In this document: positions 12,345 through 64,000 of the stretch, piece by piece
How positions within the stretch are numbered: the first letter of the stretch is position 1
Layout: the number at the start of each line of letters is the position of its first letter
NCBI RefSeq assembly: GCF_035573695.1
Contig: NZ_CP121694.1
Location: 3,294,001-3,358,000, forward strand
Direction of reading: 5' to 3'
Length of the DNA: 64,000 nucleotides
Source: Metallumcola ferriviriculae
GTDB lineage: Bacteria > Bacillota > JADQBR01
The notes under the pieces: model-generated
What the model saw: the letters and a program-made list of their open reading frames with translations, nothing else
Told to the model about the DNA's origin: nothing
Databases searched by the model: none
Position numbers and translations under genes: made by a program

Positions 12345-13205
12345 TTATCCTTCACACAAAACCTTTGCTAACATTGACTGTTTAATCCCAGTGCCGATAA
12401 AAACCACCCTGCTGAAATCTGACCGGGGAAATTCTACTATTGAATACCGGGTTTTAGTAAAGTCAAAACGAAACCAACCCCGGTGCGTATGCACCAGTCC
12501 CTTCGCCCTAATAATCTGCCCAAATTCACCTGATGCCAATGACTGCCCCAAGTATTCTATAGACTGAGTACTGATAACGGTGCCGGGGCGTATTACCACA
12601 GTTTCCAACGAAGAATGGAAATCAAATTTGGCCGTCGGTTGGTGGTGGTCACCAGGAGGAAGTGATACTTTACAATGTTTCGTCCTGAAAAGTACTGCCG
12701 CAGGATTCAGCCTGCCAATTTCATCCTCCACTCTCTTCAGCAATTTCTCTGAAATTAAATCAATCTTATTAATCAATAAAATATCAGAATTCTTTATCTG
12801 GTCCTTGTAAAAAGGGCCAAACATATGGGCATCTTCCAGATACACAGCCGCATCAATCACACCTACTACTGCCTCCACTGCCACCAAGGGACCCAATTCA
12901 TCAAGAACCCCCAGAATTCCTACCGCTATGCCCGATGGCTCAATGTATAGCTTTTCCGGGTTGAACTTGTCTTTGATATCTTTGATTGCTTCAGCCAGGT
13001 TACTACGCAGTGAACAGCAGATACAACCGCCCGGCAGCTGCACGATATCCACGCTACTGGTACTAGCCAGAAAACTGCCGTCTAGGCCCAATTCACCCAT
13101 ATCATTGACCAGCACCGCCACATTGTCCTCTGCTTTGGTTAAGATATTTTGAATTAGTGTTGTTTTGCCTGCGCCTAAGAAGCCGCAGACCACCTGGACA
13201 CGCAT
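12345..13205 (-). CDS. CobW-family GTP-binding metallochaperone-like protein
   Basis: G3E-family P-loop GTPase: Walker A GFLGAGKTTL at the N-terminus, metal-binding GGCICCSL (CxCC), Walker B region YIEPSG, and the NKIDL guanine-specificity motif; a C-terminal CobW_C part follows. Family members insert or chaperone metals and cobalamin. Last gene of the corrinoid methyltransferase array, so assistance to the corrinoid proteins is a reasonable inference. ATG at 13205, directly after the upstream stop, with GGAGGGGTGGGG before it. Confidence 0.85.
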   Translation of the reverse strand: MRVQVVCGFLGAGKTTLIQNILTKAEDNVAVLVNDMGELGLDGSFLASTSSVDIVQLPGGCICCSLRSNLAEAIKDIKDKFNPEKLYIEPSGIAVGILGVLDELGPLVAVEAVVGVIDAAVYLEDAHMFGPFYKDQIKNSDILLINKIDLISEKLLKRVEDEIGRLNPAAVLFRTKHCKVSLPPGDHHQPTAKFDFHSSLETVVIRPGTVISTQSIEYLGQSLASGEFGQIIRAKGLVHTHRGWFRFDFTKTRYSIVEFPRSDFSRVVFIGTGIKQSMLAKVLCEG

Positions 13206-13206
13206 G

Positions 13207-14478
13207 TTACCCCACCCCTCCAATTACTCCTGCATCCCGTTCCGGTCTTACGTCTAGAGCAGCAGTTACCAACTCTGTAAAATGATACAGCTTAATGGTT
13301 GAATCAGAAGCGTCTATTCCCTTTTTTAAACCTGAATAGCATGAAGGGCAGGGAGTAACTACCGCCTCCGCACCAGTTTTCTCCGCATCATGAATTCGTT
13401 CCACACTCATTTCGGTCTGCAGCTCGGGAAAAGCCATTTTCAGCCCGCCGCCAACACCGCAGCAGCGGGAGTTCTGCCTAATACGCTCCATTTCAATCAA
13501 TTGAATACCCGGCAGTGCCTTGATGACATCACGGGGCGCGTCGTAAATTCTATTGTGCCTCCCAAGGTGGCAGGGGTCATGATATGTGACGCTTAAATCC
13601 ATTGGTTGAGTAAATTTAATTTTTCCCTGATCATAAAGCTGCTGCACATATTCCGTCAGGTGATAGATTTTAAAGTTTAACTGCTTAAGCTTGGTGTAAT
13701 CCTGCTTAATGGTTTTGTAACAGCCGGGACACGAAATCACAACAGTATCAATATTTAAACTATTAAGCATCTCAATGTTTTCCAAGGCATACTCTCTCCA
13801 CGCCGGGTCACCAACGCGCCGCAGCTTACCGCGGCAGCACGGTTCATTTTCGCCCAATACGCCGAAGTCAACCTCTGCCGCCTGTAAAAGATTAATGGTT
13901 TGCTGTGCAGTAGCATTGATTTTCTCATCATATGCCGCTGTACAACCTACAAAATACAGTACCGATGCTTCTTCCTTCAATATGTTTTTTGGCCTTTTTT
14001 CAATCAAATTTTCTGTTAGGGCTTTGTTCATCCATGCATAGCGAAGATCATTGGGATGATTCCATGGGTTATCGCTTTCTTTAATCGCCTTTGCCATTTC
14101 CCACTGCCCTTTAGGAAGATGGACCCCGCCAGCAACCAGCATTTCCCTCACTGCCTCCCACAATTCTACTGTATCTATTCGTACCGGACACACATAATGG
14201 CACTGACCGCAGACGGAACACTGGGTAATAATCTGCATCAACTGTTGATCAATAGGAAACTTGGTTTTACCCTTTGAAAAAAGTTTGGTGAAGACAGAAT
14301 ACTCTTCCTTAACAGCGGATTTCAGACGTAACAGCTTGGCCCGAGGGGTGATTTCCTCCCTGGAATCTTTTGCATAAACGGGACACCAATTTAGACACTC
14401 TCCACATCTGGTGCAGGCCTGCAGTTCCAATAGTTGTCTACTGCTTAGTACTTCCAGCGGTAGTTTTTTTTCTTTCAA
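13207..14478 (-). CDS. HdrD-like (Fe-S)-binding oxidoreductase
   Basis: 423-aa heterodisulfide-reductase-D/GlpC-type protein. Two N-terminal [4Fe-4S] motifs (CTRCGECLNWCP and CSVCGQCHYVCP) are followed by two CCG domains (CPGCYKT...CCRGK; CHLGRH...CCGVGGG and CPSCYSG). Family members pass electrons between membrane carriers and thiol or disulfide centres. It is coupled (TTGA overlap) to the membrane cytochrome-like gene upstream, forming an HdrDE-like pair. TTG start with AAGGAGTGA 9 bases upstream. In this operon it may feed low-potential electrons to the corrinoid activator, which is inference. Confidence 0.85.
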   Translation of the reverse strand: MKEKKLPLEVLSSRQLLELQACTRCGECLNWCPVYAKDSREEITPRAKLLRLKSAVKEEYSVFTKLFSKGKTKFPIDQQLMQIITQCSVCGQCHYVCPVRIDTVELWEAVREMLVAGGVHLPKGQWEMAKAIKESDNPWNHPNDLRYAWMNKALTENLIEKRPKNILKEEASVLYFVGCTAAYDEKINATAQQTINLLQAAEVDFGVLGENEPCCRGKLRRVGDPAWREYALENIEMLNSLNIDTVVISCPGCYKTIKQDYTKLKQLNFKIYHLTEYVQQLYDQGKIKFTQPMDLSVTYHDPCHLGRHNRIYDAPRDVIKALPGIQLIEMERIRQNSRCCGVGGGLKMAFPELQTEMSVERIHDAEKTGAEAVVTPCPSCYSGLKKGIDASDSTIKLYHFTELVTAALDVRPERDAGVIGGVG

Positions 14479-15260
14479 TATAAGTCACTCCTTAAGCCGT
14501 CCTCAGAGGCATTCACTGCAATCTCCAATGGTGCGCTAAAAATGTGCATGAATTTGCTAAAAGGAATGTAGGCAATAAATCCAGCACTGAATAAACCGTG
14601 TGCCACCCAAAGAACGGACAGGTATAGCTGCTTATTTTGAACACCCGCCAGCAGTTCTGCTGCCCACCCACCAACAAATGCATAATTAGGGCCCACTGTT
14701 CCGGTGATAGAAGCAAACCTTATCCCCTCAATGGCAAACCCACTCACTAACAACCCCAATAATATCCAAAGTATATTTGTATCCATGGCTAGGGTATTTA
14801 GTTGTTCCACTTGAATTAATTTTCGCCGGAACAGGGCTGTCAGCACACCAATAAGCATAACCAGGCCGCCTACATCCCCCCAGACGTCAATGACTTGGAC
14901 ACCACTGCCCGCCAGCCAGTACTGCCTAAATACCTCCGGGAGTACGGACCCATCAGCTATTACTGACAGCAGGGTGGTTAGTAAAAGTAAACTAATAAAT
15001 CCCCAAAAAATTGCCATATGCATCAACCATCTCACTTTGGACTGACGCCACAACTGTCGTTGAAAAACAACCTCCATGAATATCCCATGGGCCGCGTGAT
15101 AGATTTTAAATGGGTTATATAAATTTCTTCGCTTGCCTCGCAGCATGATAGCGACATGGTCCCACATTCCTAGTGTGAAAATTATTAAAGCGGCTAGATG
15201 CAGCACCCAAAAAATTGGCCAAGGCTTATAGTAATAAACTTGGTAGAAATCCGCCGGCAC
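14475..15260 (-). CDS. HdrE/NarI-like membrane cytochrome b subunit
   Basis: 261-aa integral membrane protein with about five transmembrane segments and histidines suited to heme ligation (WVLHLAALI, YHAAHGIFMEVV, LMHMAIFWGF, WVAHGLFSAG), as in nitrate reductase gamma and HdrE/DsrM. GTG start preceded by GGAGGATTAATC. With the HdrD-like neighbour it would connect the quinone pool to a cytoplasmic Fe-S protein. Confidence 0.82.
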   Translation of the reverse strand: MPADFYQVYYYKPWPIFWVLHLAALIIFTLGMWDHVAIMLRGKRRNLYNPFKIYHAAHGIFMEVVFQRQLWRQSKVRWLMHMAIFWGFISLLLLTTLLSVIADGSVLPEVFRQYWLAGSGVQVIDVWGDVGGLVMLIGVLTALFRRKLIQVEQLNTLAMDTNILWILLGLLVSGFAIEGIRFASITGTVGPNYAFVGGWAAELLAGVQNKQLYLSVLWVAHGLFSAGFIAYIPFSKFMHIFSAPLEIAVNASEDGLRSDLY

Positions 15261-15262
15261 GA

Positions 15263-16624
15263 TTAATCCTCCCCATTTTGTATTTGCTCCAGACGATAGA
15301 TCAGATTATCCACTGTTTGGGCTACAGGTGAATACGGCCAATTCAAAGATGGTGTATAACAAGTCTCCGCCAATGAAATCTCACTGAGAGATATCTGTTC
15401 AGTCATAGCAAGGGCCAAACGGTCAAGATCCGCTATTCCCACCGGGTCCTCAGAAATTAGCTGAACACCAATTAAGCGGTAGGACTCCGATTCTGCTGCT
15501 AATTTTATATGAATTGGTTTGCCGTTAACATATGGTGGTTTGACAGTAGCCCTATGGGAAGCCGTAGCAACTTGAGGACTATCCGGCAGCAGCATTCCCC
15601 TGGCGGTTTCATTATATCCTGCGGTACCGATATACAAACCCGCCAGCTTAATGGCAAAAGTGTGAACAGTGCCGTTATATGCCACCATTTTCTCAGAAAC
15701 CATATTCTGCGCCGCCACTTTTGCAGTACGCACCGCATTACTGCCCATCATAGACAGTGTGGGTCTACCAGAAATCAAGTCCGTGGTTTGGGCCACATCT
15801 CCAACGGCGAAAATATTAGGGTCACTAGTCCGCAAAAATTGATCCACTTTTATTCCGCCTGTTTCCCCTATCTCTAAGCCACACCGCCGCGCCAATTCAT
15901 TTCGGGGTCTAAACCCTGTGCAGTAGACTATACAATCTGCCTTTACGGAAGAATCATCAATAACTGCAATCTTCTGTCCCTCTTCGGTTCTTATTTCACT
16001 AACCTGGGCATTAAACAAAAAGTTAACACCTTGACCGGCCAACCTGTCCTGTACTATTTGCGCCATTTCCCTATCAAGGAATTTGGGAAGAATTTGGTTA
16101 GCAGCTTCAACTACCCAAACGTCTTCATAGTTACGGTTAACCAGTGCCTCTGCCGCCTCTAACCCAACCGGCCCCGCGCCTATAATCACTGCTGATTTAA
16201 ACTGTGGTAATGCCTTGAGAAAGTTTTCCGCATAAACCATATCCGTGCCCAAGGTAAACTCGTTTGTGCCATCTGCACCGGGAATAGGCGGAATAAATGG
16301 CTCCGATCCGGTAGCAATTACCAGCCGATCATATCTAACCTTTTCACCCTTAACTGTAACGTATTGCTGTTGAGGCTCAATTTCCGTAACCGCCGTCTCC
16401 ATATGATAAAAAATATTGTTTTTTGCCATACCGGCGGGGTCGAAGTTAATCATGGTTTCAAAGCTAGGAATTTCCCCACCGAGAACATAGGTCAGTTCAC
16501 AAGGGCGATATCCGGCAACCTTACGCTTAGTGTACACTTGTACCTGGGCCCTAGGCATATATTTTTTTACCGTTCTCGCCGTAACTGCCGAAGAACCGCC
16601 GCCGCCAATAATTAAAATGTCCAT
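15263..16624 (-). CDS. Pyridine nucleotide-disulfide oxidoreductase (CoA-disulfide reductase/NADH oxidase-like)
   Basis: About 453 aa. It has FAD motif IIGGGGSSAVTA, NAD motif IIGAGPVGLEAAEAL, C-terminal FAD element NIFAVGDVAQ and a Cys in YRPCELTYVLGG, at the place of the single redox-active Cys of CoA-disulfide reductases and NADH oxidases. Directly upstream of the HdrE/HdrD pair, so the three may form one electron-transfer module. ATG at 16624 chosen from GGAGG 8 bases upstream. Confidence 0.84.
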   Translation of the reverse strand: MDILIIGGGGSSAVTARTVKKYMPRAQVQVYTKRKVAGYRPCELTYVLGGEIPSFETMINFDPAGMAKNNIFYHMETAVTEIEPQQQYVTVKGEKVRYDRLVIATGSEPFIPPIPGADGTNEFTLGTDMVYAENFLKALPQFKSAVIIGAGPVGLEAAEALVNRNYEDVWVVEAANQILPKFLDREMAQIVQDRLAGQGVNFLFNAQVSEIRTEEGQKIAVIDDSSVKADCIVYCTGFRPRNELARRCGLEIGETGGIKVDQFLRTSDPNIFAVGDVAQTTDLISGRPTLSMMGSNAVRTAKVAAQNMVSEKMVAYNGTVHTFAIKLAGLYIGTAGYNETARGMLLPDSPQVATASHRATVKPPYVNGKPIHIKLAAESESYRLIGVQLISEDPVGIADLDRLALAMTEQISLSEISLAETCYTPSLNWPYSPVAQTVDNLIYRLEQIQNGED

Positions 16625-16660
16625 AACACTCACCTCCGATTAAATAAATATATATCAGAC

Positions 16661-16693
16661 TGTTGACAAACTCTGCCCGAGATTTTGTCAACA
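16661..16693. repeat. 10-bp inverted repeat between importer ATPase and oxidoreductase
   Basis: TGTTGACAAA and TTTGTCAACA with a 13-base GC-containing loop, in the short gap between the ABC ATPase stop and the oxidoreductase start. It has no T-run; it could be an operator, an RNA processing hairpin or a weak terminator partitioning the array. Confidence 0.5.
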
Positions 16694-16707
16694 AGCTGAA
16701 ACATATA

Positions 16708-17436
16708 CTAATTTGCCATTAAAGATAATATCTGCTCACGGAGCTTAACAAAAGGTAACGAAGTTCTCTGCCGCGGCCTGGGCAGCTTCACTAGAAACTC
16801 CTGCCTGTTTCCTGCTGGCCTGCCGGTGAGTACCAGTACCCGGTCAGCTAAATAGAGTGCTTCGTCAATATTATGCGTAACAAACACTATAGTCAGCTTT
16901 TCATGTTCCCATAGCTCTATAAGCTGCTGCTGCATGTAATTTCTTGTCTGAGCATCCAATGCCGCAAATGGTTCATCCATCAGCACCACCTTCGGCTTGT
17001 ATGCCAACGCCCGAGCAACCGCAACTCTTTGTTTCATCCCACCGGATAACTGGTGCGGGTAATGACCGCCGAACTGCTGTAAGTTTGTCAGTCGGAGAAA
17101 ATAGGCCGCTAATTCTTCTCGTTTTTCACGCTTCATACCGGAAAGTTCTAACGGAAATGTAATGTTCTTTTTGATAGTCAACCAGGGAAAGAGGGTATCC
17201 TCTTGAAATACAAAACCTATTTCCCTTCCCCCGGGGGAAGGACTGCTCCCATCTACGATAATCCGTCCGGTATCAGAACTTTCCAACCCCGCGATTAAGC
17301 GCAGCAATGTACTTTTTCCACAGCCGCTGGGCCCGGTAATACAGCAGAATTCGCCTTTCTCAACGGTTACTGAAAGGTTTCGAAGGATATTCAACTGCTG
17401 ATAGTTTTTTCCCAGTTTTTCCACCACTAACGCCAT
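16708..17436 (-). CDS. ABC transporter ATP-binding protein (TauB/SsuB type)
   Basis: 242 aa. Walker A GPSGCGKSTLLR, Q-loop VFQEDTLFPW, signature LSGGMKQRVAVARAL, Walker B VVLMDEPFAALD, H-loop FVTHNIDEA. This pattern is that of the nitrate/sulfonate/taurine importer class. Its start overlaps the permease stop by 10 bases. It powers the importer that I infer brings the methylated substrate to the demethylase system. Confidence 0.88.
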   Translation of the reverse strand: MALVVEKLGKNYQQLNILRNLSVTVEKGEFCCITGPSGCGKSTLLRLIAGLESSDTGRIIVDGSSPSPGGREIGFVFQEDTLFPWLTIKKNITFPLELSGMKREKREELAAYFLRLTNLQQFGGHYPHQLSGGMKQRVAVARALAYKPKVVLMDEPFAALDAQTRNYMQQQLIELWEHEKLTIVFVTHNIDEALYLADRVLVLTGRPAGNRQEFLVKLPRPRQRTSLPFVKLREQILSLMAN

Positions 17437-18269
17437 GGCTGCAGCCTCTTTTCCATTACTAAAAATAATTTGTTCATCAGATAACCAATTAAACCGATAG
17501 TGATGGTGCCCGCTATAATTTCAGCCGAACGTCCGCCAATGCTGTATACGGACCAAATATAATAACCTATTCCCATTTTACCGCCAACAAATTCTGCGGC
17601 AATAACGCACATCCATCCCACGCCTAGCCCAATGCGAAGACCGGTAACCATATGGGAAATCGATGCGGGAAACAATACTTTACTGATAATTTGCCACCTG
17701 GTGGCACCGCAGGTAATAGCGGCGTTTATAAAACGTTTTTCCACCGACTTAATCCCCTGGGTAGTATTCAGCAAGACAGGGAAAAACGCACCCACAAATA
17801 CCACAAAAATTTGCACATAAGTAGTAGGTGAGGAAAAATCCTGGAACAATATATAAGCTAGAGGTATCCAAGCCAGCGGTGGAATGGGTCTAAACATTTC
17901 CAGTAAAATGCCAGCGAATTGTTCAAAAAATCGAAAAGTGCCCAGCATCATCCCCAATGGTATTGCCGTCACCATGCTTAGAAAGCATCCCTTTAGCACT
18001 ATCATCAGGCTGGCAAAAGTCATCTGCTGCAGCGTTTTTCCATAAACCGGGTCACCGGAAACTATCAGGCGTATTAGTGTAGCCGTCACCACCCCCGGAG
18101 TAGGCAGCGAAAGCCATTGCTTAACCGCTGCCACCTGCCAGAAAATTATAAACATGGCTATGGTGAACACCGACATACCCCATCTTCTTAGCTTATCGTC
18201 TACATTCAACAGCTTACCCGGTATAATAGTTTGCTTTTCAGCTTCGTAGTTGTTCATTTGGGAGGGCAA
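17427..18269 (-). CDS. ABC transporter permease (TauC/SsuC type)
   Basis: About 280 aa with six transmembrane segments, the BPD_transp_1 domain, and an EAA-like loop around ERFINAAITCGATRWQ...LFPASIS. The TTG at 18269 (11 bases after AAGGAG) is the best-supported start; ATG at 18257 has no ribosome site and a GTG at 18305 is too far upstream. Between the binding protein and ATPase genes in a compact importer operon. Confidence 0.85.
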   Translation of the reverse strand: MPSQMNNYEAEKQTIIPGKLLNVDDKLRRWGMSVFTIAMFIIFWQVAAVKQWLSLPTPGVVTATLIRLIVSGDPVYGKTLQQMTFASLMIVLKGCFLSMVTAIPLGMMLGTFRFFEQFAGILLEMFRPIPPLAWIPLAYILFQDFSSPTTYVQIFVVFVGAFFPVLLNTTQGIKSVEKRFINAAITCGATRWQIISKVLFPASISHMVTGLRIGLGVGWMCVIAAEFVGGKMGIGYYIWSVYSIGGRSAEIIAGTITIGLIGYLMNKLFLVMEKRLQPWR

Positions 18270-18305
18270 GAATGTATCATCTCCTTCTGTACCGGGAAGG
18301 CGCAC

Positions 18306-19385
18306 TTACTTAACCTGAGTTTTCAGGTTACTGTCGTTTAATGCTTTTTCTAATAGGTAATACTGCACAGTTCCTATGGCAGGTATCGCAATAGTCTTAC
18401 CTTTTAAGTCGGAGAAATCATCTATCCCCGCATCGGGGCGTACCACAATAGCAGAACCTTCCTCGTTAGCACCGGCAATAACTTTAATGCCGATATCGTC
18501 ATTAATTCGCTTTAATGTTGCCGGGGCGCCTCCTAAATAGGAAATGTCCACATCATTATTTTTAAAACCTTCCATAGCTGCTACGCCGTTGGTAAAGTTG
18601 ACAAACTCCAGATTAGCGCCAGGTATTAAACCTACGTCCTGATAAAAACCCTCTTTTTGTGCCACGTAAACAGCAAACTCATGTAAGTCTTTTGTTAAAA
18701 AGCCTAAGTGCAACTGGACCTGGCTGTTTACCTTTTGTGGTACCCACTGAGAGTCTTTTTTAAGTTGCTTTGATACTTCTTGGTAGTAACTGTCCACAAA
18801 AAAGTTGGAGAAAAATTCTTCTTTTTCACTATAGCCAATATCAGCGAAATCTTTCGTCAAAAGGCCTCCGGCCTTCAACTGCGAGTAATATGCTTCAAAT
18901 TCGTCCACGTTAGGGTACTCCACAAAGTGGATGGTCTTTAACGCCTCCACCACTACCTCCCTGTTCTTAGCTGTAAACTCCATGGCGTACTCAATTACCC
19001 GCTCTTTGTTCTCTGGGTTATTAATAAAACGAGTGGCCTTGACGTGGGCCCAGGTTACGGCAGATAACACTTTATCATCCTGGTAGTCAATATTAGCGGC
19101 CAATATACAGCAGGGGTGGTTCGGCCATATTTCTCCCGACATCGCTAAATACTTACCATCCTGCCCCAATACCGCTTCGGCATTAAATGGTTCCCAGGCT
19201 ACAAACCCGTCTATTTCCTTTGCGCCCAACTGACTAAGCATGTTGGCCGGCCCGGTTTGGGTAATATAAACTACATCTTCCTGTTGCTGAGATCCACTAT
19301 TGCACCCCGTTACTGCCACCAGTAGAAGGATCAGCACCCCGATAATCACTATTACCTTTTCACTACAAGTTCTTTTAATGTTCAT
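18306..19385 (-). CDS. ABC transporter substrate-binding lipoprotein, circularly permuted (TauA/SsuA type)
   Basis: About 359 aa with a lipoprotein signal (hydrophobic LLLLVAVTGC lipobox). After the signal, the order of the mature domain is reversed. Residues about 35-200 are the part that is C-terminal in normal NMT1/SsuA-type proteins (GPANMLSQLGAKEIDGFVAWEPF, EIWPNHPCC). Residues about 215-359 are the usual N-terminal half (LHLGFLTKDLHEFAVYVAQK, YLGGAPATLKRI, GSAIVVR, DLKGKTIAIPAIGTVQYYLL), ending just where the other half normally begins. Both lobes are therefore complete, as in a circular permutation. ATG at 19385 with GGAGG 9 bases upstream. Ligand unknown. Confidence 0.85.
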   Translation of the reverse strand: MNIKRTCSEKVIVIIGVLILLLVAVTGCNSGSQQQEDVVYITQTGPANMLSQLGAKEIDGFVAWEPFNAEAVLGQDGKYLAMSGEIWPNHPCCILAANIDYQDDKVLSAVTWAHVKATRFINNPENKERVIEYAMEFTAKNREVVVEALKTIHFVEYPNVDEFEAYYSQLKAGGLLTKDFADIGYSEKEEFFSNFFVDSYYQEVSKQLKKDSQWVPQKVNSQVQLHLGFLTKDLHEFAVYVAQKEGFYQDVGLIPGANLEFVNFTNGVAAMEGFKNNDVDISYLGGAPATLKRINDDIGIKVIAGANEEGSAIVVRPDAGIDDFSDLKGKTIAIPAIGTVQYYLLEKALNDSNLKTQVK

Positions 19386-19515
19386 GACAGACACCTCCAA
19401 GTCGATAAAGTACCCAGCCGTTCCTAACCACCCCTACCATAGACACCCATTCAAACATATACTTGAAAGAAACAGCAAGAGGTAAAGCGGAAAAACCGCT
19501 TTACCTTTTTACTGT

Positions 19516-20574
19516 TTATCTATTCCTTCGCGCCCATTTCTCCGCACCATATTTCTTAACCGCACCGGTCATTGCCTTTAAATTTACTACCGGCGCCTCC
19601 GGCCATATGTCACAACTGGGCCAAATAGCATCAACACCGCCTTCGATAGCCGCCAGCACAGCTTCTTCTACCTGCTCCGGCGTACCGCTGACCAGCACGT
19701 TAAATGCATCAATATTGCCAAATATCAGTGCATCCTCGCCCACAGCAGCTCTACTGCTTTGTAGGTCATTTTTCTGTTCTACGCTCAATGCTCCCGCACC
19801 GGTTTCCTGCATGATATCCATAATTTTGTTGGTACCGCCACAAATATGCAAAATATGGGGTTTATTTAGATTATTAAATATCTTTGTCAGATGCGGCTGA
19901 ATAACTTTTTTAAATACCCGAGGGCTTAGCACATCCGTGGTAGCTCCCATCTCTCGAACACAGATATAGTCAGCACCAGCATCTTCATAGGCGTTGCCTA
20001 CAGTTATGAGTACGTCTGCTAATCTATCCAGCATTTCATTTATCATATCCGGCTTCTTTAAGCATAACTTTACAACATCATTCAGATCCATTATTTGACC
20101 TGCCAAAGTGAATGGGCCAAGCACATAAGCGCCAATAGCAGCTTCACTGCCGATATCTTCCTTTAAACGTTTGATGGCATCCATTACTACTGGTACGCGA
20201 CCGCGTTGTGCCAAATTATCCGGAATTTCAAATGTTGTCATTTCATCGGTGGAGTTTACTATTTTTTCTTTAATTGTAGGATATAAAAGCTGTTTAACAT
20301 CTTCATAAGGGTTCATTACGCATCCCATAGCCTCGGCCTCCACACAAAGGTCAAATGGAACCACTGCACACTCAAAGTCAAATAAGCGATGCGAAGTAGC
20401 TGCCGCTTCCGCCATCTTCTTGCTATCCCCGTGTAATTGGGGAAAATTATATTCTAAACCCTGAAAACCTGCAGTTGTTACGTTACCCATACCACTAAAA
20501 CATGGAATTCGGTCTATCTCTTCACCCTTTAACAGGCCGAGAATTCTTTCCTTCGGTGTCAATGACGTAACCAA
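19516..20574 (-). CDS. UroD-type corrinoid methyltransferase (MtaA/CmuA/MtvB family)
   Basis: 352-aa uroporphyrinogen-decarboxylase-fold methyltransferase. The zinc motif H-x-C-xn-C is visible as HICGGT and PSCDIWPEAP, which separates it from true heme-pathway UroD. In O-demethylase systems one such protein moves the substrate methyl to the corrinoid protein; in methanogens MtaA/MtbA moves it to CoM. It is one of two in the operon. TTG start with AAGGAGG 8 bases upstream. About 130 bases separate it from the binding protein gene downstream. Confidence 0.85.
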   Translation of the reverse strand: MVTSLTPKERILGLLKGEEIDRIPCFSGMGNVTTAGFQGLEYNFPQLHGDSKKMAEAAATSHRLFDFECAVVPFDLCVEAEAMGCVMNPYEDVKQLLYPTIKEKIVNSTDEMTTFEIPDNLAQRGRVPVVMDAIKRLKEDIGSEAAIGAYVLGPFTLAGQIMDLNDVVKLCLKKPDMINEMLDRLADVLITVGNAYEDAGADYICVREMGATTDVLSPRVFKKVIQPHLTKIFNNLNKPHILHICGGTNKIMDIMQETGAGALSVEQKNDLQSSRAAVGEDALIFGNIDAFNVLVSGTPEQVEEAVLAAIEGGVDAIWPSCDIWPEAPVVNLKAMTGAVKKYGAEKWARRNR

Positions 20575-20631
20575 TATAAAAACCTCCTTGAATTTCCAAA
20601 TATAACTTTTTCACTACTACTTAATGTGAAG

Positions 20632-21573
20632 TTATGCACCTTTTAGTGTATCTGCAAACTCACCAAACAATTTGTATAGCGGGTGATTTTCGTTGGACGG
20701 CAGTTCCTTGCGTTCGTGGTATGCAAGGGTACTCAGTATTAGGCTGGCACTGGCCATAGCAGGTAAGTACCTAGGCATAGCTACTATAGGACCGGTGAAT
20801 AAAAAGTCGCTCCACAGCAGCGATGCAGCTGCCTGCCCTGCGCCATCCATGGCCTTGAAACCGTCACTACCGAATAAATCTCTGGCTTCTTTCCACATCC
20901 ATGTACCATTTGATGCTGCCACACCCGCAGGCCAACCAAACTCTTCTTTTAACATTTTAGTAGCCAAAGCTGAAAAACCAATGGCAGGAAGGTTCATAAC
21001 CGAAGTATCAATCATAATCGTCTCGAAGGTATCTTCACCAATCATTGCCATCATCTTACGAAAAGATTTAACTCTGCCTGCAGGTGACTGGTCCTGCTCA
21101 TCAAAGACCTGAACAACCGCATGTTTTACTCCCATTTCTTTCAGCTGAGTCACCTGACCGGGAATATCCTTATCCCAAGGTGTAATGCTGTTATACAGCA
21201 CCCGATCCTGGAGGCCCAGTTCGGCAATATATTTCATGGCTTCCAAACGCTGGTCCTGAACCCACATGTCTATTCCAAAAGGCTTGTCACTGATACTAGT
21301 CAAGAAGTCAATATAAGTTTTCATCTCGTCGACTTTGGTAGCCACCATGGCCACCATGGCGGGAATCCCCGTCTTCTCGGACAATTCCTCCTGCCGCAGG
21401 ACATACTCTTTTGCCTTAGCTTTGTCAAACTTTCTTTCTTTGCGACTTTCCAATATTTTATCACTGTTATGAAACATAGAGGAAATCAGCAAAGGTGGGT
21501 TTTCCCCGGGCTGTCCACCGACACGGAAATCCCCAATGGTACAAGTCTTTTGTTCCTTGTCAAAACTAAACAC
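20632..21573 (-). CDS. MtrH-like methyltransferase II (methyl-corrinoid:tetrahydrofolate)
   Basis: About 313 aa, MtrH family (subunit H of tetrahydromethanopterin S-methyltransferase), a TIM-barrel pterin methyltransferase. Recognised from FRVGGQPGENPPLLISSMF, PFGIDMWVQDQR and the DTSVMNLPAIGFSALA region. In acetogens such as Moorella and Acetobacterium the homologue (MtvA/OdmD) transfers the methyl from the corrinoid protein to tetrahydrofolate; that is the inferred role here. GTG at 21573, 7 bases after AAGGAG. Confidence 0.85.
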   Translation of the reverse strand: MFSFDKEQKTCTIGDFRVGGQPGENPPLLISSMFHNSDKILESRKERKFDKAKAKEYVLRQEELSEKTGIPAMVAMVATKVDEMKTYIDFLTSISDKPFGIDMWVQDQRLEAMKYIAELGLQDRVLYNSITPWDKDIPGQVTQLKEMGVKHAVVQVFDEQDQSPAGRVKSFRKMMAMIGEDTFETIMIDTSVMNLPAIGFSALATKMLKEEFGWPAGVAASNGTWMWKEARDLFGSDGFKAMDGAGQAAASLLWSDFLFTGPIVAMPRYLPAMASASLILSTLAYHERKELPSNENHPLYKLFGEFADTLKGA

Positions 21574-21666
21574 ATTATCACTCCTTAAAACACGCAATAT
21601 TCAATAAATTTATTTTGAGGGAAAGATGGCAAGGGGTTAAGTTCTTTAAATAAAACGCCTAATTCT

Positions 21667-22161
21667 TTAAAATACTCCGTGATCCCACTTCGGCGGCGGC
21701 AGGTACTCCCACTCTTCGCCATTGATCATCTTTTGAGCTAATTCAACACACTTGGCAGCATATTCGAAAGCATAGGGGATACCGGGGCCTTCAGGCACAA
21801 AACCGGCTAAAATCATCCCGACGGATGCCGCTTCAAATACTTCTTCCACTGTAGCGCCGGCCTTAACAGCAGGATAAACGTGGATAATGCAGCGCGGTGA
21901 CATGTAGGCTACACCGCCAGCCATGAAAATTAATTCTTTAACTTTCCGTGACAGCGCACCATCTTCCCAAATACTGTTATAGAAATCAGCAAATGTTACC
22001 CCTGCAGTAGGGTTCAGTTCATTAATAATTTTGAACATCCTGGGCGTAAACAGCATAGTATCTTGCATGTATTTATTTGCCTCTTCAGCTGTCCATTTCT
22101 TCTTGTCATCACTCACTTGAATTTCACCTCCGGTAAGATACTCAAAAAGTTTCTTAAGCAT
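21667..22161 (-). CDS. Carboxymuconolactone decarboxylase/AhpD-like protein
   Basis: About 164 aa with the all-helical CMD fold signature: VKELIFMAGGVAY, SPRCIIHVYPAVKAGATVEEVFEAASVGMIL. Only one Cys is in the active-site segment (RCIIH) instead of the CxxC of AhpD peroxidases, so disulfide chemistry is doubtful. It lies inside the methyltransferase operon, between the MtrH-like and UroD-type genes, so a role in substrate handling or Cys-redox protection is inferred. ATG at 22161 with GGGAG 8 bases upstream. Confidence 0.8.
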   Translation of the reverse strand: MLKKLFEYLTGGEIQVSDDKKKWTAEEANKYMQDTMLFTPRMFKIINELNPTAGVTFADFYNSIWEDGALSRKVKELIFMAGGVAYMSPRCIIHVYPAVKAGATVEEVFEAASVGMILAGFVPEGPGIPYAFEYAAKCVELAQKMINGEEWEYLPPPKWDHGVF

Positions 22162-22235
22162 GAAACACTCTCCCTGTTCCAAAGCCATCTTCCCCTTAAA
22201 ACCAATATCACCCAACAAAACACTGTGTTACAATT

Positions 22236-23270
22236 TTAATTTTTCCAGTCGTGAGCAGTTTGGACGAAAGCCTGAATATTTTCTAGAGGTACCGTGGGAG
22301 GAATATCGCATCCGGGCAACAGAACATACCCTCCGCCCTCATTAGCTTTCTTAATGCATTCAGTGGAAGCTTCTCTCACACGCTGCTGTGTACCCTGGGT
22401 TAAAGCATGGACAGGATCCACATTTCCGGCAATGCACTGCCGGTCGCCAATCTCTTCCTTGGCTTTGGCCATATCTACTTTATAATCAAATGCAAACAAA
22501 TCTACTTCCGTTTCCGGTATTAACCCTAATCGGTCACTGGTATCGCCGCAGATATGCAAAAAATGCAGCCCGTTAAAGTTGTCATGCAAGCGCCTAGAGA
22601 AGTCCTTTAAGTAAGGCATAGCAAATGTTTCAAACTGCTTACGAGAAATCAGGTCTCCTGATGCTGTAGGGTCAGCAAGGGCCGCGCAAGTTATATAGCC
22701 AGCTTCAAACATGGGCCGGTAAAATTCGTAACAAAGCTCTGTTGAAAACTCTAAAATCGCATGCATGAACTCTTTCTGCTTGAAAGTGCCTCTCATCAGA
22801 CGTTCCACACCATATAACTGACCAGCAATGGTAAACGGCCCCCAAGCCGTGGGGCCAACTAAGTACTTATCCCCGATTTTTTCATTAACAATCTCCGTCG
22901 CTTTCCAAATGGTGTTGATAACCTCGTCGTCCTTCAAACGGCTGATATCCAATTTATCCAAGTCCGCGGGTTCATTAATAAGGGGCGCTTCCAAATCCGG
23001 AGCACCAACCTCTCGATACTTTACTGTTCCTCCCAGAGCTGCAGCATGCAGGTTGTTAAAACCAGACCCCGGGAACACCATGTCTGACTGCACTTTCTCC
23101 GCCGTATCAATAATAAGCTGGGCATATTTTTCGGGCTCACCAACGTAATTATCGAACCTATTGCCGGAATTCTTCATTGTCCATACACCACCGCCGTAAA
23201 TAACAACAGGAACGCGTTCGGCTAACTCCATATTGAATGCCTTAAGTACAGTCTCTTTAGGTGTTAACAT
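22236..23270 (-). CDS. UroD-type corrinoid methyltransferase, second copy
   Basis: About 344 aa, UroD fold, with zinc motif HICGDT and LPGCDIPPTVP. Divergent from the copy at 19516-20574, so the two probably act on different partners (substrate to corrinoid, corrinoid to acceptor) or on different substrates. The ATG at 23270 has AGGTGGAG in front. Directly downstream of the activator gene, as the methyltransferase I gene is in odm/mtv-type operons. Confidence 0.84.
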   Translation of the reverse strand: MLTPKETVLKAFNMELAERVPVVIYGGGVWTMKNSGNRFDNYVGEPEKYAQLIIDTAEKVQSDMVFPGSGFNNLHAAALGGTVKYREVGAPDLEAPLINEPADLDKLDISRLKDDEVINTIWKATEIVNEKIGDKYLVGPTAWGPFTIAGQLYGVERLMRGTFKQKEFMHAILEFSTELCYEFYRPMFEAGYITCAALADPTASGDLISRKQFETFAMPYLKDFSRRLHDNFNGLHFLHICGDTSDRLGLIPETEVDLFAFDYKVDMAKAKEEIGDRQCIAGNVDPVHALTQGTQQRVREASTECIKKANEGGGYVLLPGCDIPPTVPLENIQAFVQTAHDWKN

Positions 23271-23313
23271 ATCTCCACCTCCAATCATATTTTCCACTTT
23301 CGACATCCGAATG

Positions 23314-25287
23314 TTACAGATTAACAGCCTTGCCTTGTTTATCCGCATTTGCTTTCAATACCTTCTCAAGGTTTGGAAACTCATCCTTAGAGTGGGGGAA
23401 ACCCATAGCATCTGCGAACCGCTGCTGGAAGTCCGGCTCAACAGCTGTCTCCACAAATTCAACTTCTTTAGCCACTCTTTGGGCCTCGTCACGCTTGTCT
23501 TTATCCAGCAAAGCAACCTGGGCACCGTCCCCGGCAGCATTACCTACAGCTACTATCTTTTCTAATTCACAGTCCGGGAACATTCCGATAGCCAAAGCAC
23601 TTTCGGTATTAATGTAGCTGCCAAAAGCTCCCGCCAGAGTAACACTATCGATCTTTTCTACACCTAATTTTTCCATCAGATACTTAGCACCTACATAAAG
23701 AGCCGATTTGGCCAGCTGCACCGCGCGTATATCACCTTGAGTAACGGTTATATCCTTACCGATGGAAGTCTCATCAGCCCAAGCCAGCACATACTCCATC
23801 TTACCGTCCGCACCTTTTCTAACCCGTGGTGTCTCAAGCTTCTTATTTATCCGTCCTGTCTTGCCAAAAATACCGGCTTTAAACATTTCGGCGATTACGT
23901 CAATAATTCCTGAGCCGCAGATACCCTTCGAATCGGTCTTTTTAATATCCGGGTACCACTCTTCTTTTCCAATTACCCTATATCTTGGTTCATAGGTTTG
24001 AGGATCAATCTCTACGTTTTCAATGGCCCCGGGGGCAGCGCGCATACCAAATTTTATCTGGGCACCCTCCAAAGCCGGACCGGTAGCACACGAAGTGCAT
24101 AACATTTTATCCGAATTACCAAGATCAATTTCACCATTGGTACCAATATCGATCAACAATCTCATCTCATCTTTTTGCATGTACGGTTCTTCTGCAATCA
24201 TAACTCCCATGTTATCAGGACCCACAAACCCTGCTTCTATGGGCAGCACATGGACGTTAGCAGCAGGGTTAACATTAATGCCCATATCCCTGGACTTAAT
24301 GTTAAGGGATTGCTTAACCGCAGGCGCAAAGGGTGACCGCCCCATGTGTTTGGGTTCTAGACCTAGGGCAATATGGTGCATGGCAGTATTAAATACCAAT
24401 ACCACTTCCGCTACCTGTGCCGGTATGATTTCTGCTTCCCCAGTCATCTTTACAATTAAGTCGTTCAAGCCTTGGATGATAGCATCGTGCATTTTCTCCA
24501 GACCGTCTTCGTTCATCATGGAGTATGTTATTCTAGAAAGAACATCCTCACCATAGCGCACCTGGGGATTCATCATGGATTTCTTGCTGAGTAAAGCCCC
24601 ACTCTTTAAATCCAGCAAATAAGCAGCCACAGTTGTAGTGCCAATGTCCACAGCCACTCCATATGCCTTTTCCACCAAGCCCGGATTAACGGAGATTACC
24701 TCCTTATCATTCCAGATGCTGGCGGTAATTTTCCAGTCCCCTTCTCTAAGTGAATTTGGCAGTGTTTTCAAAGCGAAGTAATCAATGGTTAATCCCCTGT
24801 CCAATTCGCCGTACTTTTCAGTGAGTGCCTGTTGCAGTCTTTCCCAGTCACCACGCTCATCTGCCAATGTAGCTTTTCCCATTTCAACATAATAGTTTTT
24901 GACTGCCGGATTTAGGTTAAAAACACGTTCCTTACCAGTTTCCAGTACTACCTGATTCGCACCCCTGCTCTCCTCAGGAACAAATACCAATACATCGCCA
25001 TTAACTTTAGCATGGCAGGCAAAACGAATATTATCTTCTACCTGTTCTTCCGTCAGTTTTCTTTTTTCATGTGCAGAAAGATCGGATAAATTAGACATCT
25101 TTGAGTCTATATTAAACTTTTCAAAGTAACCTTCCTCAATTTTGACCATGCACTTTTTACAGGTCCCGGCACCGCCGCAGGTGTTTTCTATGTCAACCCC
25201 CAGCTCTCGAGATGCTTCCAAGAGAGTTTTGTCTTCCTCTATTTTCCCCCGCCGGCCGGAAGGTTGAAAAATTACATTATATTCCAT
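23314..25287 (-). CDS. Reductive activator of corrinoid proteins (RACE, ASKHA/DUF4445)
   Basis: About 657 aa. An N-terminal plant-type [2Fe-2S] ferredoxin domain (CGGAGTCKKC plus a fourth Cys in RFACHA) is followed by an ASKHA-fold ATPase with phosphate loops GVAVDIGTTTVAAYLL and LLIDIGTNGEIDLG and the adenosine-side LAGAFGSYI. Such proteins use ATP to reduce inactive Co(II) corrinoid to Co(I) (OdmC/AE in acetogens). The electron donor is unknown; the flavin/HdrDE-like module in the same array is a candidate. ATG at 25287 with GAGGAGGTG upstream. Confidence 0.9.
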   Translation of the reverse strand: MEYNVIFQPSGRRGKIEEDKTLLEASRELGVDIENTCGGAGTCKKCMVKIEEGYFEKFNIDSKMSNLSDLSAHEKRKLTEEQVEDNIRFACHAKVNGDVLVFVPEESRGANQVVLETGKERVFNLNPAVKNYYVEMGKATLADERGDWERLQQALTEKYGELDRGLTIDYFALKTLPNSLREGDWKITASIWNDKEVISVNPGLVEKAYGVAVDIGTTTVAAYLLDLKSGALLSKKSMMNPQVRYGEDVLSRITYSMMNEDGLEKMHDAIIQGLNDLIVKMTGEAEIIPAQVAEVVLVFNTAMHHIALGLEPKHMGRSPFAPAVKQSLNIKSRDMGINVNPAANVHVLPIEAGFVGPDNMGVMIAEEPYMQKDEMRLLIDIGTNGEIDLGNSDKMLCTSCATGPALEGAQIKFGMRAAPGAIENVEIDPQTYEPRYRVIGKEEWYPDIKKTDSKGICGSGIIDVIAEMFKAGIFGKTGRINKKLETPRVRKGADGKMEYVLAWADETSIGKDITVTQGDIRAVQLAKSALYVGAKYLMEKLGVEKIDSVTLAGAFGSYINTESALAIGMFPDCELEKIVAVGNAAGDGAQVALLDKDKRDEAQRVAKEVEFVETAVEPDFQQRFADAMGFPHSKDEFPNLEKVLKANADKQGKAVNL

Positions 25288-25382
25288 AATGCACCTCCTC
25301 AATAATTCAATTACTGCTAGGATGAAATTTGATTAATGGCTAAAGTGGCATATCATAACCATTTAACCTTCAAAGAAACTTA

Positions 25383-26057
25383 TTACTCTGCCAGTTCCAT
25401 TTCTTTTAAGGAACTAAGCATGTTAATGGCATCTTTAAGAGCATTATTGGCATCTTCTGCATAACCATCCGCTCCCCATTTGCCGGCTATTTCTTCGTTT
25501 ACCGGTGCACCGCCAATCATAATCTTTGCCTTGGGATTCTTTTCTTTGATCATCTTGATTACTTCAGGCATACCTACCATAGTGGTAGTCATCATAGCCG
25601 AAAGACAAACCAATTCTGAATCTGTCTTAAGCTGCTCTTCCACAAACTTTTCCAAAGGTACGTCCCTGCCTAAATCATGTATAATGAACCCGGATGCATC
25701 AAACAGCATTTTGACAATATTTTTACCGATGTCATGTACATCACCCTGTACAACACCCATAACCACTTGACCTTTACTGGTGTCCTGATCATTATCCATA
25801 TGAGGCTTTAATATCTCCAAGCCGACATACATGGCGTCCGCACACATCAGAAGCTCCGGCACAAAATACTCCTGCTCTTCATAAAGCTGACCTACTGCTT
25901 CCATGCCCGGTACTAATCCTTCAAAAACGGCCTTATGCGGGTCTAATCCCTCATCAAGGGCGAGTTGAGCTGCTTTTTTAACATCGTCTTCCTCAAAATC
26001 TATCACACCCTGTTTTAATGCTTCTAAGATTTCTTTTTCTTTTTCTGGACTAACCAT
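25383..26057 (-). CDS. Corrinoid (B12-binding) methyl-carrier protein (MtaC/MtvC/OdmA type)
   Basis: 224 aa. An N-terminal helical cap (about 1-90) precedes a Rossmann B12 domain with the base-off/His-on motif DVHDIGKN; SAMMTTTM and IMIGGAPVNEEIA follow. Shuttles the methyl group between the methyltransferases. First gene of the array, preceded by GAGGAGG and a 430-base gap shared with the divergent regulator, so it probably marks the start of the operon. Confidence 0.92.
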   Translation of the reverse strand: MVSPEKEKEILEALKQGVIDFEEDDVKKAAQLALDEGLDPHKAVFEGLVPGMEAVGQLYEEQEYFVPELLMCADAMYVGLEILKPHMDNDQDTSKGQVVMGVVQGDVHDIGKNIVKMLFDASGFIIHDLGRDVPLEKFVEEQLKTDSELVCLSAMMTTTMVGMPEVIKMIKEKNPKAKIMIGGAPVNEEIAGKWGADGYAEDANNALKDAINMLSSLKEMELAE

Positions 26058-26487: not shown

Positions 26488-27270
26488 TTGTTTACAATTT
26501 TTTCAGGACAACGACTGCGAGAATTTCGTAAAGAACGTGATTACACTCTCAACCAACTTGCAGAACGTTTAAATGTTTCTCCCTCGTATCTCAGCAGTAT
26601 TGAAAGGAATTTAAAAACTCCCTCCATACCGCTGCTTAAAGAAATCAGCAAAACCCTAAACATCTCTGTTAGTTATCTCTTTGACGACTATATTCCCGGC
26701 GAAATCGGGGAACGGCTAAAACTATTTCGGGAAGGTCGCGGTCTGATTCTTCAAGATCTTGCAGACCTAAGTAATATCGACGTTGAAATAATTGACGAAA
26801 TCGAACAAGGTATTTCCGAACCAAACTTGGATCAAGCCGAGGCACTGGCTAAAGCATTGAATGTTTCAATGCGGTATTTTTACGAAAAGCTTAACAGCGA
26901 CACCTCTTTAGGAAATAAGGTCAGGCAGGCTCGAATGAAAGCGGGATTAACTGGAGCAGATTTAGCAGCAAAGGCCGGAGTTTCTCCGCCATTAATCAGT
27001 CAAATTGAAAACAATCAGACTACTCCTCTGCTTGATACACTGGAACGTATTGGCAATGCCCTAGGTTTAACAGCCAGCTATTTCCTACTGGAACAGAAAG
27101 ATATTGAAAGCTTACTTGCTTCGCTAAATCCAAAGATTGCTGAAATGCTGGGGGATCCCCAAGTTCAAACTTTTTTGCGGTCCATCAGTAACTTGAGTGC
27201 GGAAGAATTTACGTTTGTTTTAAAGTATGTAGAATTTTTTAAACATAACAAGTCACATCTGAAAATTTAA
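26488..27270 (+). CDS. Transcriptional regulator with three XRE-type helix-turn-helix domains
   Basis: 260 aa. Three Cro/CI HTH units in tandem at about residues 8-65, 73-128 and 140-197, each with the LxxLAxxxxVSxxxISxIE-like pattern (LNQLAERLNVSPSYLSSIE; LQDLADLSNIDVEIIDEIE, degenerate; LAAKAGVSPPLISQIE). The C-terminal 60 residues match no sensor domain I know. The start is uncertain: the TTG at 26488 abuts the AAAGGGG site, and ATT at 26497 would be better spaced. Divergent from the corrinoid operon, which it probably controls. Confidence 0.8.
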   Translation: MFTIFSGQRLREFRKERDYTLNQLAERLNVSPSYLSSIERNLKTPSIPLLKEISKTLNISVSYLFDDYIPGEIGERLKLFREGRGLILQDLADLSNIDVEIIDEIEQGISEPNLDQAEALAKALNVSMRYFYEKLNSDTSLGNKVRQARMKAGLTGADLAAKAGVSPPLISQIENNQTTPLLDTLERIGNALGLTASYFLLEQKDIESLLASLNPKIAEMLGDPQVQTFLRSISNLSAEEFTFVLKYVEFFKHNKSHLKI

Positions 27271-27288: not shown

Positions 27289-27606
27289 TCATTCCTCGAA
27301 TTGAATATAGGCATCTTTGGGAACAGCACCACCAATTTCTACTTGAATAGCCTTTATCACCGCACTGGGAACCGGGCAGTCAGTATGCTGCCTGAGTCTC
27401 TGATGTGCTGATTTGTATACTATTGAATCTAGTATCGGTGTAAATACCCCTTTCCTACAGTCAATAACCATCAAATCCTCATTCATATCCCTGACAAGTT
27501 TACAAGCACTGACAATTTTTAGGGATACCTTCAGATGACCTATTTGTTCCACTTTTATAACACTGCTAAAACCACAAACTCCGGCTGAGACTCTTACTCT
27601 GGTCAT
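27289..27606 (-). CDS. DUF6951-like small protein, copy 1
   Basis: About 105 aa. Shares with the protein at 28735-29055 the order V-x-AG-x-CG near the N-terminus, a middle Cys-Lys (SACKLVRDM), and the C-terminal DCPVPSAVIKAIQVEIGGAVPKDA. Conserved Cys at three places suggests metal or cofactor binding. I associate this family with corrinoid methyl-transfer loci, but the function is unknown. ATG at 27606 with AGGAGG upstream. Confidence 0.65.
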   Translation of the reverse strand: MTRVRVSAGVCGFSSVIKVEQIGHLKVSLKIVSACKLVRDMNEDLMVIDCRKGVFTPILDSIVYKSAHQRLRQHTDCPVPSAVIKAIQVEIGGAVPKDAYIQFEE

Positions 27607-27718
27607 TTTTTCCTCCTGCTCTAAACGCTTATTATAATGTATAAAGTAACGTGTGTGAAAAGTGCTTATACCATGGTCTAAGGCGGTCACTAATTAGAAT
27701 GTTTATTGAGCTCGCCAG

Positions 27719-28674: not shown

Positions 28675-28703
28675 TTGACAGCGAAATGACCCGGCATTAT
28701 AAT
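28675..28703 (+). promoter_or_regulatory. Consensus sigma-A promoter for the DUF6951 gene
   Basis: TTGACA (28675-28680), exactly 17 bases, TATAAT (28698-28703): a full-consensus promoter 32 bases before the ATG, predicting strong expression unless repressed. Confidence 0.85.
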
Positions 28704-28734: not shown

Positions 28735-29055
28735 ATGAAAAGTGTTGTCGTCATTGATGCTGGAATTTGCGGACATAAGACAACGGTCACAGCGGTTTCC
28801 GAAGACAAAAAGCACTGCACTTTAGCAATTGAAACCGACTGTAAAAACATTGCCAGAATGGCCGAGGACCTTGATGAGGTCAATCCGTTATTTGAAATTG
28901 GTGTAAAGAGCAAGAACAGCAAAATTAGAAAAGGTTTTTTGGATTACGGCAGCCATGCCGCCTGCCCGGTGCCTGCCGGCCTGGTGAAAGCCGTTGAAGT
29001 TGCTAGCGGTCTAGCGGTGCCTAAGGATGCTATAATTACAGTTAGTAAGGGATAG
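28735..29055 (+). CDS. DUF6951-like small protein, copy 2
   Basis: 106 aa, paralogous to the protein at 27289-27606: VIDAGICGHKT at the start, ETDCKNIARMAEDL in the middle, and AACPVPAGLVKAVEVASGLAVPKDA at the end. Strong GGAGGGAGG site, full-consensus promoter and its own terminator make it a monocistronic, probably abundant protein. The conserved cysteines suggest a metal or cofactor carrier; this is inference. Confidence 0.7.
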   Translation: MKSVVVIDAGICGHKTTVTAVSEDKKHCTLAIETDCKNIARMAEDLDEVNPLFEIGVKSKNSKIRKGFLDYGSHAACPVPAGLVKAVEVASGLAVPKDAIITVSKG

Positions 29056-63932: not shown

Positions 63933-64000
63933 AGATTGAAATATCTCACTTTTTTGACTTTAGTTTTATAATTTGAGATAATTTGACAATTTCCTTCTTT

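Follow-up and report, generated by a model that had tools for sequence, protein, structure and literature searches.

The stretch of Metallumcola ferriviriculae DNA analysed here (the window; 64,000 nucleotides, positions 3294001-3358000 of a closed 3.72-Mb genome) contains an array of 13 collinear genes that probably encodes a catabolic corrinoid S-demethylation system, which would pass the methyl group of a small S-methylated compound to tetrahydrofolate (H4folate); judged from sequence, we put the probability of this reading at roughly 0.57. S-demethylation is inferred from the His-Cys-Cys zinc ligands of two UroD-superfamily methyltransferases, designated UroA and UroB, from their likeness to MtaA, and from the sulfur-metabolism neighbourhoods in which the sister clades of UroA are found. 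The cluster looks like one devoted to sulfur chemistry rather than to lignin-ether chemistry. The original prediction had proposed a corrinoid demethylation array made up of the parts of acetogen O-demethylases, with its own importer and electron supply. Our analysis supports the demethylation system, with a substrate-specific methyltransferase (MT1), corrinoid protein, RACE activator and MtrH, as well as the dedicated importer collinear with the methyltransfer genes, whereas the assignment to the O-demethylases was not borne out.

Organization of the gene cluster

Open reading frames and profile matches place the 13 genes on the minus strand, running from 26057 to 12345 in the order given below. 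All of the components named in the original prediction (corrinoid protein, RACE, two UroDs, MtrH, importer, flavoprotein, HdrED-like pair and CobW) were present where it had located them, and its observation of a collinear gene set is confirmed. Its parts list had omitted a CMD protein between UroA and MtrH, and the extent it gave, 12345-26057, was right for the array but too short for the system, which reaches approximately 28420 with QueGl, DUF6951 and a divergent regulator.

25383..26057, minus strand: corrinoid protein of the MtgC/MtbC/MtaC type (PF02607 and PF02310; TIGR02370; His108)
23314..25302, minus strand: RACE/RACo-type ATP-dependent reductive activator with N-terminal [2Fe-2S] (PF14574, PF17651, PF17650, PF00111)
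22236..23348, minus strand: UroA, zinc (His-Cys-Cys) UroD-superfamily methyltransferase, candidate substrate-specific MT1 (PF01208; MtaA 4ay7, 1.8e-27)
21667..22218, minus strand: CMD (carboxymuconolactone decarboxylase/AhpD-fold) protein (PF02627)
20632..21597, minus strand: MtrH-like methyl-corrinoid:pterin methyltransferase (MT2) (PF02007; NF002142)
19516..20574, minus strand: UroB, zinc (His-Cys-Cys) MtaA-like UroD methyltransferase, putative second S-directed methyltransferase (NF004889, TIGR01463; 4ay7, 2e-52)
19480..19506, minus strand: hairpin with a weak T tail at the UroB/importer junction (terminator or attenuator)
18306..19400, minus strand: circularly permuted NMT1/SsuA-type substrate-binding lipoprotein (SBP) (swapped lobe order; lipobox)
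17427..18305, minus strand: ABC permease (PF00528)
16708..17436, minus strand: ABC ATPase (PF00005)
15263..16633, minus strand: flavin adenine dinucleotide (FAD) pyridine nucleotide-disulfide oxidoreductase of the CoA-disulfide-reductase/NADH-oxidase type (PF07992; TIGR03385; Cys45)
14475..15260, minus strand: NarI/HdrE-like membrane cytochrome b (PF02665; QmoC, 41 bits)
13207..14478, minus strand: HdrD/TfrB-like protein (PF02754, PF13183; TfrB, 190.4 bits)
12345..13223, minus strand: CobW/COG0523 GTPase, putative zinc (or cobalt) chaperone (PF02492, PF07683)

The intergenic gaps range from -35 to +115 bp, depending partly on the start codon chosen, and a good ribosome-binding site is found at nearly all of the genes; by this measure the preferred starts are ATG 25287 for RACE, ATG 23270 for UroA, ATG 19385 for SBP and ATG 13205 for CobW. 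Such an array is far from what chance would produce, since Thermincola and its relatives have the gene set in broadly the same order.

Class of the UroA and UroB methyltransferases

Ligand alignment revealed the His-Cys-Cys zinc site (HxC..C) in both UroA and UroB and its absence from HemE. UroA scored 99.6 bits (1.8e-27) against MtaA (4ay7) and only 27.4 bits against CdmB (9rui), while UroB scored 181.8 bits (2e-52) against MtaA and gave no CdmB match; UroB also passes the MtaA-subfamily models NF004889 (288.9 bits, cut-off 244) and TIGR01463 (247.3 bits, cut-off 235.4). MtaA, the closest relative of solved structure, is itself a thiol methyltransferase. In these comparisons CdmB, which has been assigned to the MtvB/OdmB/MtoB branch of the UroD superfamily (PMC13222342), stands in for that branch, OdmB and MtvB sequences not having been compared themselves. 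No zinc was reported in CdmB or in the Moorella enzyme (PMC13222342), and a survey of the superfamily linked His-Cys-Cys to methyl transfer from sulfur or selenium and carboxylate ligands to O-demethylases (PMC10418091).

In a carefully built phylogeny of 71 UroD sequences, UroB formed one clade (support 100/100) and UroA a separate one (98/95). The sister of the UroA clade (joint support 99/97) is made up of UroDs whose genes neighbour NifH-, NifD/E-, NifK- and NifB-like genes and NitT/TauT importers, and the next clade outward (99/99) of UroDs beside cysteine synthase (CysK) and cystathionine-lyase genes. Nitrogenase-like and CysK contexts are those of the non-selenium branch of type 1 mlp clusters, which has been read as methyl-sulfur metabolism (Kountz and Balskus, 2023; PMC10418091). 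In six loci (L150-L155), UroDs with 41-47% identity to UroA directly adjoin NifH/NifD/NifK/NifB-like genes and NitT/TauT importers; the nitrogenase-like genes would be of Mar, Isr or another group IV type.

Heme synthesis does not need UroA or UroB, as the genome encodes a separate HemE (G000:C1:1891180, 477.8 bits), which branches apart from both proteins. This HemE and the tree together rule out either protein as HemE, and the original prediction was right to set both UroDs outside heme synthesis.

Its O-demethylase assignment fared less well. An OdmABCD/MtvABC-type O-demethylase, acting on methoxy-aromatics or other substrates, would account for the clustering of the same four component types (MT1, corrinoid protein, MtrH and RACE), and AcsB is present as well. 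However, both UroDs are MtaA-like and lie off the CdmB branch (CdmB again serving as proxy for OdmB/MtvB), they possess the His-Cys-Cys ligands that are replaced or missing in O-demethylases (PMC10418091; PMC13222342), and the sister clades of UroA are sulfur-linked; we therefore leave O-demethylation only a small share of the probability.

The zinc site, together with the corrinoid/RACE/Mlp architecture, would also suit a system in which UroA and UroB demethylate methyl-selenides for selenium salvage, as proposed for type 1 mlp clusters, most of which have a selenium link (PMC10418091). UroA, however, groups with the nitrogenase-like- and CysK-linked UroDs, that is, with the non-selenium clade contexts of that study. 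In addition, an MtrH gene within the cluster implies that the carbon is used, and no selenium gene was seen near the cluster in the window, SelABD not having been searched for genome-wide. We consider selenium salvage improbable.

Since a CmuA-like protein also has His-Cys-Cys, the site leaves room for halide as well as selenium donors, and dehalogenation of a halomethane (chloromethane or dichloromethane), analogous to Cmu, Cdm or the mec cassette, has to be weighed. The mec cassette does combine UroD proteins with a corrinoid protein, pairing the methyltransferases MecC and MecE with MecB, and MecC has less than 40.4% identity to other proteins (PMC10344839). On the other hand, a gas would hardly call for an ABC importer of its own, the UroD and corrinoid domains of CmuA are fused in one polypeptide that forms a long branch by itself in the tree, and a cmu-like pair is separate from the cluster in one host metagenome-assembled genome (MAG). 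On these points, weighed without a comparison to Mec sequences, halomethane dehalogenation is an unlikely explanation, and membership of the Cmu system itself is ruled out, as UroA, UroB and the corrinoid protein are separate polypeptides with no CmuA-type fusion. The MAG in question is Firmicutes HGW-Firmicutes-14, in which the cmuB-cmuA-like pair (L119, 8812-11600; the UroD-corrinoid fusion has 624 residues) and the present type of cluster are carried at different places. Other large UroD proteins occur in Nitrospirota and Nitrospinota (L084, L087, L097), where proteins of 835 or more residues have a UroD domain without the zinc His-Cys pair followed by a ferredoxin-like cysteine motif; read by eye, these are apparently UroD-RACE fusions.

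Corrinoid protein, activator and carbon outlet

The corrinoid protein reached 206.8 bits with TIGR02370, just under the cut-off of 215.3, and His108 of its DxHxxG motif is conserved in the family, as are C42, C48, C51 and C96 of RACE. MtrH (NF002142, 377.7 bits, cut-off 287) is the sole MtrH of the genome. AcsB is encoded in an acs-like operon, so the Wood-Ljungdahl pathway is available to take up the methyl group. In the CMD protein, an SPRC-x-x-H motif is invariant.

A circularly permuted binding protein

In the SBP, the second lobe of NMT1-type proteins (profile positions 151-249) corresponds to residues 41-137 and the first (7-130) to residues 237-362, and the same swap of the lobes was obtained with Pfam, NCBIfam and PDB matches. 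Homologues from 398 genomes fell into two sets: full-length permuted proteins (45-54% identity) and ordinary binding proteins matched over one lobe, the latter aligning to residues ~217-362 or 43-182 of the query only; the SBP does not have the canonical lobe order. All nine cluster copies that were aligned have the swapped order and an invariant lipobox G32-C33. An AlphaFold model of the SBP (predicted local distance difference test, pLDDT, 73) gave low Foldseek TM-scores to many binding proteins and VIA-align Z-scores of at most 8.5. The case for circular permutation is made by the order of the matched segments, the model alone being no proof of it.

Permuted SBPs with a permease and an ATPase also occur outside methyltransferase clusters (L190, L191, L194, L195), where they adjoin lactate-racemase-like (Lar_N), CoA-transferase or carboxyltransferase genes; such neighbours suggest an organic anion as cargo. 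Two genomes of the Thermincola family (L192, L193) have lone permuted SBP genes without permease or ATPase, beside a gene whose 358-residue product matches no Pfam family. No description of a permuted NMT1/SsuA-type importer family was found in the literature.

Flanking genes

Beyond the corrinoid protein gene, the following features were identified.

26488..27270, plus strand: divergent regulator with three XRE-type helix-turn-helix (HTH) domains (PF01381, three times)
27289..27690, minus strand: DUF6951 protein, likely start ATG 27603 (PF22263, 99.8 bits)
27719..28420, minus strand: QueGl, short B12-fold protein of the QueG/reductive-dehalogenase/CblC superfamily with 4Fe-4S motifs (PF13484; QueG/RdhA PDB chains)
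28735..29055, plus strand: second DUF6951 protein (PF22263, 104.7 bits)

A promoter-like site (11/12 match) lies at 27659-27631 ahead of the first DUF6951 gene, and a perfect sigma-70-like TTGACA-17-TATAAT at 28675-28703 upstream of the second. DUF6951 (PF22263) is found in the clusters of many relatives and is a repeated companion of corrinoid methyltransferase clusters, and the divergent triple-HTH regulator is kept beside the cluster in six loci (L035, L037, L039, L046, L054, L057). Elsewhere in the window, a c-di-GMP-I riboswitch (83.1 bits; 63845-63934, minus strand) is located just upstream of open reading frames of 649 and 1941 residues.

Redox proteins, QueGl and CobW

The FAD oxidoreductase scored 246.5 bits with TIGR03385, below the cut-off, and its active-site-like Cys45 is invariant. 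The HdrD-like protein carries 4Fe-4S motifs and complete CCG motifs, two of each, with every CCG cysteine invariant, and the NarI/HdrE-like cytochrome has invariant H81, H221 and H239. A two-CCG HdrD and a NarI-type cytochrome b with conserved His are the marks of HdrDE/DsrMK-type complexes, with which the pair shares its CCG and His motifs; its reaction with a heterodisulfide and a quinone is putative. In the profile search the pair did not reach the NCBIfam equivalog cut-offs for TfrB, DsrK and QmoC (190.4 bits for the HdrD-like protein with TfrB, 41 bits for the cytochrome with QmoC).

The original prediction had suggested that these redox proteins could feed electrons to RACE. As a general donor to RACE the HdrED-like pair is ruled out by co-occurrence, since most RACE clusters lack the pair, which is a companion of the importer, CMD and CobW rather than of RACE. 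A quinone-linked HdrED pair would not, on its own, attain the Co(II)/Co(I) potential. From their thiol/disulfide families and intact motifs, we infer that the redox genes would better fit the handling of a freed thiol than the feeding of RACE.

QueGl, a 233-residue iron-sulfur protein, matches epoxyqueuosine reductase and reductive dehalogenases in sequence. Its AlphaFold model (mean pLDDT only 61) gave VIA-align Z-scores of 12.7 to 4ras and 12.5 to 5d0a, and lower ones to the B12 chaperones CblD (9.2) and CblC (7.2). The cysteines are conserved, and fold match and cysteines together agree with the layout of the QueG/RdhA/CblC group, a B12-binding fold followed by 4Fe-4S clusters, with B12 as a putative ligand. 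QueGl is kept into Nitrospirota and Nitrospinota and follows the corrinoid core more widely than does the HdrED-like pair. It is the better candidate for a redox partner, and we hypothesize that it helps to load the corrinoid or to supply low-potential electrons.

CobW genes repeatedly adjoin UroD/corrinoid genes in several loci, a neighbourhood that would suit a metal chaperone serving zinc methyltransferases. Another case of CobW beside a zinc methyltransferase was seen in L031 (14772-19551), where a RACE-CobW-corrinoid protein set with an apparent methanol methyltransferase MtaB, read by eye, adjoins a UroB cluster.

Conservation and nested modules

The order to which the host belongs is represented by only three genomes in the collection searched. 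The full set, in the same general order, was found in Thermincola MAGs and their neighbours (L039, L040, L042, L043, L057, L061), with cut loci in L196 and L197, and the Thermincola ferriacetica MAG BL5_bin.1 has the complete block twice in tandem, the copies having diverged (L043 1-20000 with L061). Genome G097 (L042) likewise has two block copies side by side. Because clusters were first sought with MtrH as seed, the co-occurrence of UroB with MtrH is biased; scans with UroA are free of that bias. One UroA scan, over 84,980 species genomes, yielded 17 loci, which came from Bacillota, Nitrospirota and Nitrospinota, with a single fragment of euryarchaeal origin.

Across the loci the genes form nested modules. 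The core consists of the corrinoid protein, RACE and UroB, with MtrH adjoining it in Bacillota; upon it are layered QueGl and DUF6951 (often), UroA (in some), then CMD and the importer, and then CobW, NarI and HdrD. UroB adjoins UroA in all UroA loci with sufficient flank, and is also found without UroA. CMD travels with the permuted SBP and is 66-79% identical in relatives. In Nitrospirota and Nitrospinota, the cluster reads QueGl-UroA-UroB-corrinoid protein-RACE; next come genes for a Gfo/Idh protein, in some cases for a peroxiredoxin-like protein, and for a tetrahydromethanopterin (H4MPT) formyltransferase. MtrH is located elsewhere in these genomes and AcsB is absent. Each of the 11 UroA-bearing relatives tested, those without AcsB included, has MtrH somewhere in the genome.

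The hairpin at 19480-19506 divides UroB from the importer genes, so that one single transcript is not assured. Its T tail is weak, whereas strong hairpins occupy the equivalent junction in five other loci (L039, L040, L043, L057, L061); as a terminator or attenuator, it may allow the two halves to be expressed at different levels. The array might even comprise two independent units, one operon for methyl transfer, with the genes from the corrinoid protein through UroB, and beside it an importer/redox operon that has nothing to do with it, all the more as permuted importers occur without methyltransferases and UroB clusters without the importer. In relatives that have both, however, SBP directly follows UroB, with the CMD, CobW, NarI and HdrD genes keeping company, and the whole block is duplicated in tandem, for which reasons we hold unrelated units to be a minor possibility.

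Relationship to known systems

The system would be a variant of the corrinoid methyltransferase kind, all of its functional steps being predicted from sequence; it appears closest to the mlp clusters and, in logic, to the methanogen Mts/MtpCAP systems. Type 1 mlp clusters of the non-selenium branch (PMC10418091) likewise have a corrinoid protein, RACE and at least two MtaA-related UroDs with His-Cys-Cys, and share the nitrogenase-like and CysK/Met-enzyme contexts seen here in the sister clades of UroA. They have no H4folate methyltransferase, whereas the present cluster contains MtrH and adds the separate UroB clade (separate in a tree without reference Mlp2/Mlp3 sequences), QueGl, DUF6951, the permuted importer, CMD, CobW and the HdrED-like genes. 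MtsA/MtsB and MtpCAP pair a CoM-methyltransferase-type protein with a corrinoid protein and use dimethyl sulfide, methanethiol or methylmercaptopropionate as donors, MtpP being a dedicated transporter (PMC7374477). The present system differs in being bacterial, in passing the methyl group to a pterin via MtrH instead of to coenzyme M, and in having an ABC importer with a permuted SBP; the likeness is drawn from logic, not from sequence.

OdmABCD/MtvABC and CdmBCA (PMC13222342) have the same logic of MT1, corrinoid protein, MtrH-like MT2 and RACE, but here the UroDs are of another branch, the zinc site is of the thiol type and there are two MT1-like proteins. The cmuBCA chloromethane pathway (PMC4197683) also joins a UroD methyltransferase, with His-Cys-Cys in CmuA, to an MtrH-type MT2, but its UroD is fused to the corrinoid domain and it lacks both an importer and a second UroD of this kind. 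As for the SBP, Tp0684/MglB-2 of Treponema (PMC4990184) is also a naturally circularly permuted ABC binding lipoprotein; it is a type I sugar-binding protein, whereas the present one is of the NMT1/SsuA type, permuted between lobes.

Proposed mechanism

In the S-demethylation system that we favour, the ABC importer would take up a small S-methylated organic anion, and UroA and UroB would move methyl groups from the S-methyl donor or donors to Co(I) of the cluster corrinoid protein. UroA probably acts on a special substrate, and UroB on the product of that same compound or on a commoner methylated thiol; two S-directed methyltransferases would suit a donor that bears two methyl groups, or one whose product in turn serves as the second donor. 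MtrH, present by gene content, would then pass the methyl group to H4folate and on into the Wood-Ljungdahl pathway. RACE, with ATP and a low-potential donor, would reduce Co(II) to Co(I), and the best candidate to assist in this reduction, or in loading the corrinoid, is QueGl. Handling of the freed thiol may fall to the flavoprotein that resembles CoA-disulfide reductase, together with the HdrED-like pair in the membrane, and the pair may exchange thiol electrons with menaquinone, which is the weakest step of the scheme. CobW possibly inserts zinc into both UroDs.

Several points weigh against this assignment. The presence of His-Cys-Cys in a CmuA-like protein makes the zinc site compatible with halide or selenium donors; the sulfur neighbourhoods are a property of the sister clades and not of UroA's own clade; no sulfur-assimilation gene was found within the window's own cluster; no member has a known substrate; and the operon is possibly split by the hairpin. 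A broader picture is that of a bacterial dissimilatory methyl-sulfur pathway in which thiol electrons pass to or from menaquinone via an HdrED-like complex, QueGl is the low-potential partner of RACE, and the same core operates on H4MPT in Nitrospirota and Nitrospinota; we regard it as speculative and doubtful.

Anaerobic demethylators of methylated sulfur outside the methanogens, and their enzymes, are poorly known, and the cluster offers a concrete candidate that is conserved and includes a dedicated importer; its core ranges from Bacillota to Nitrospirota and Nitrospinota. The old question of who reduces RACE also becomes testable, as co-occurrence disfavours the HdrED-like pair as a general donor and a B12-fold iron-sulfur protein steps in as a candidate.

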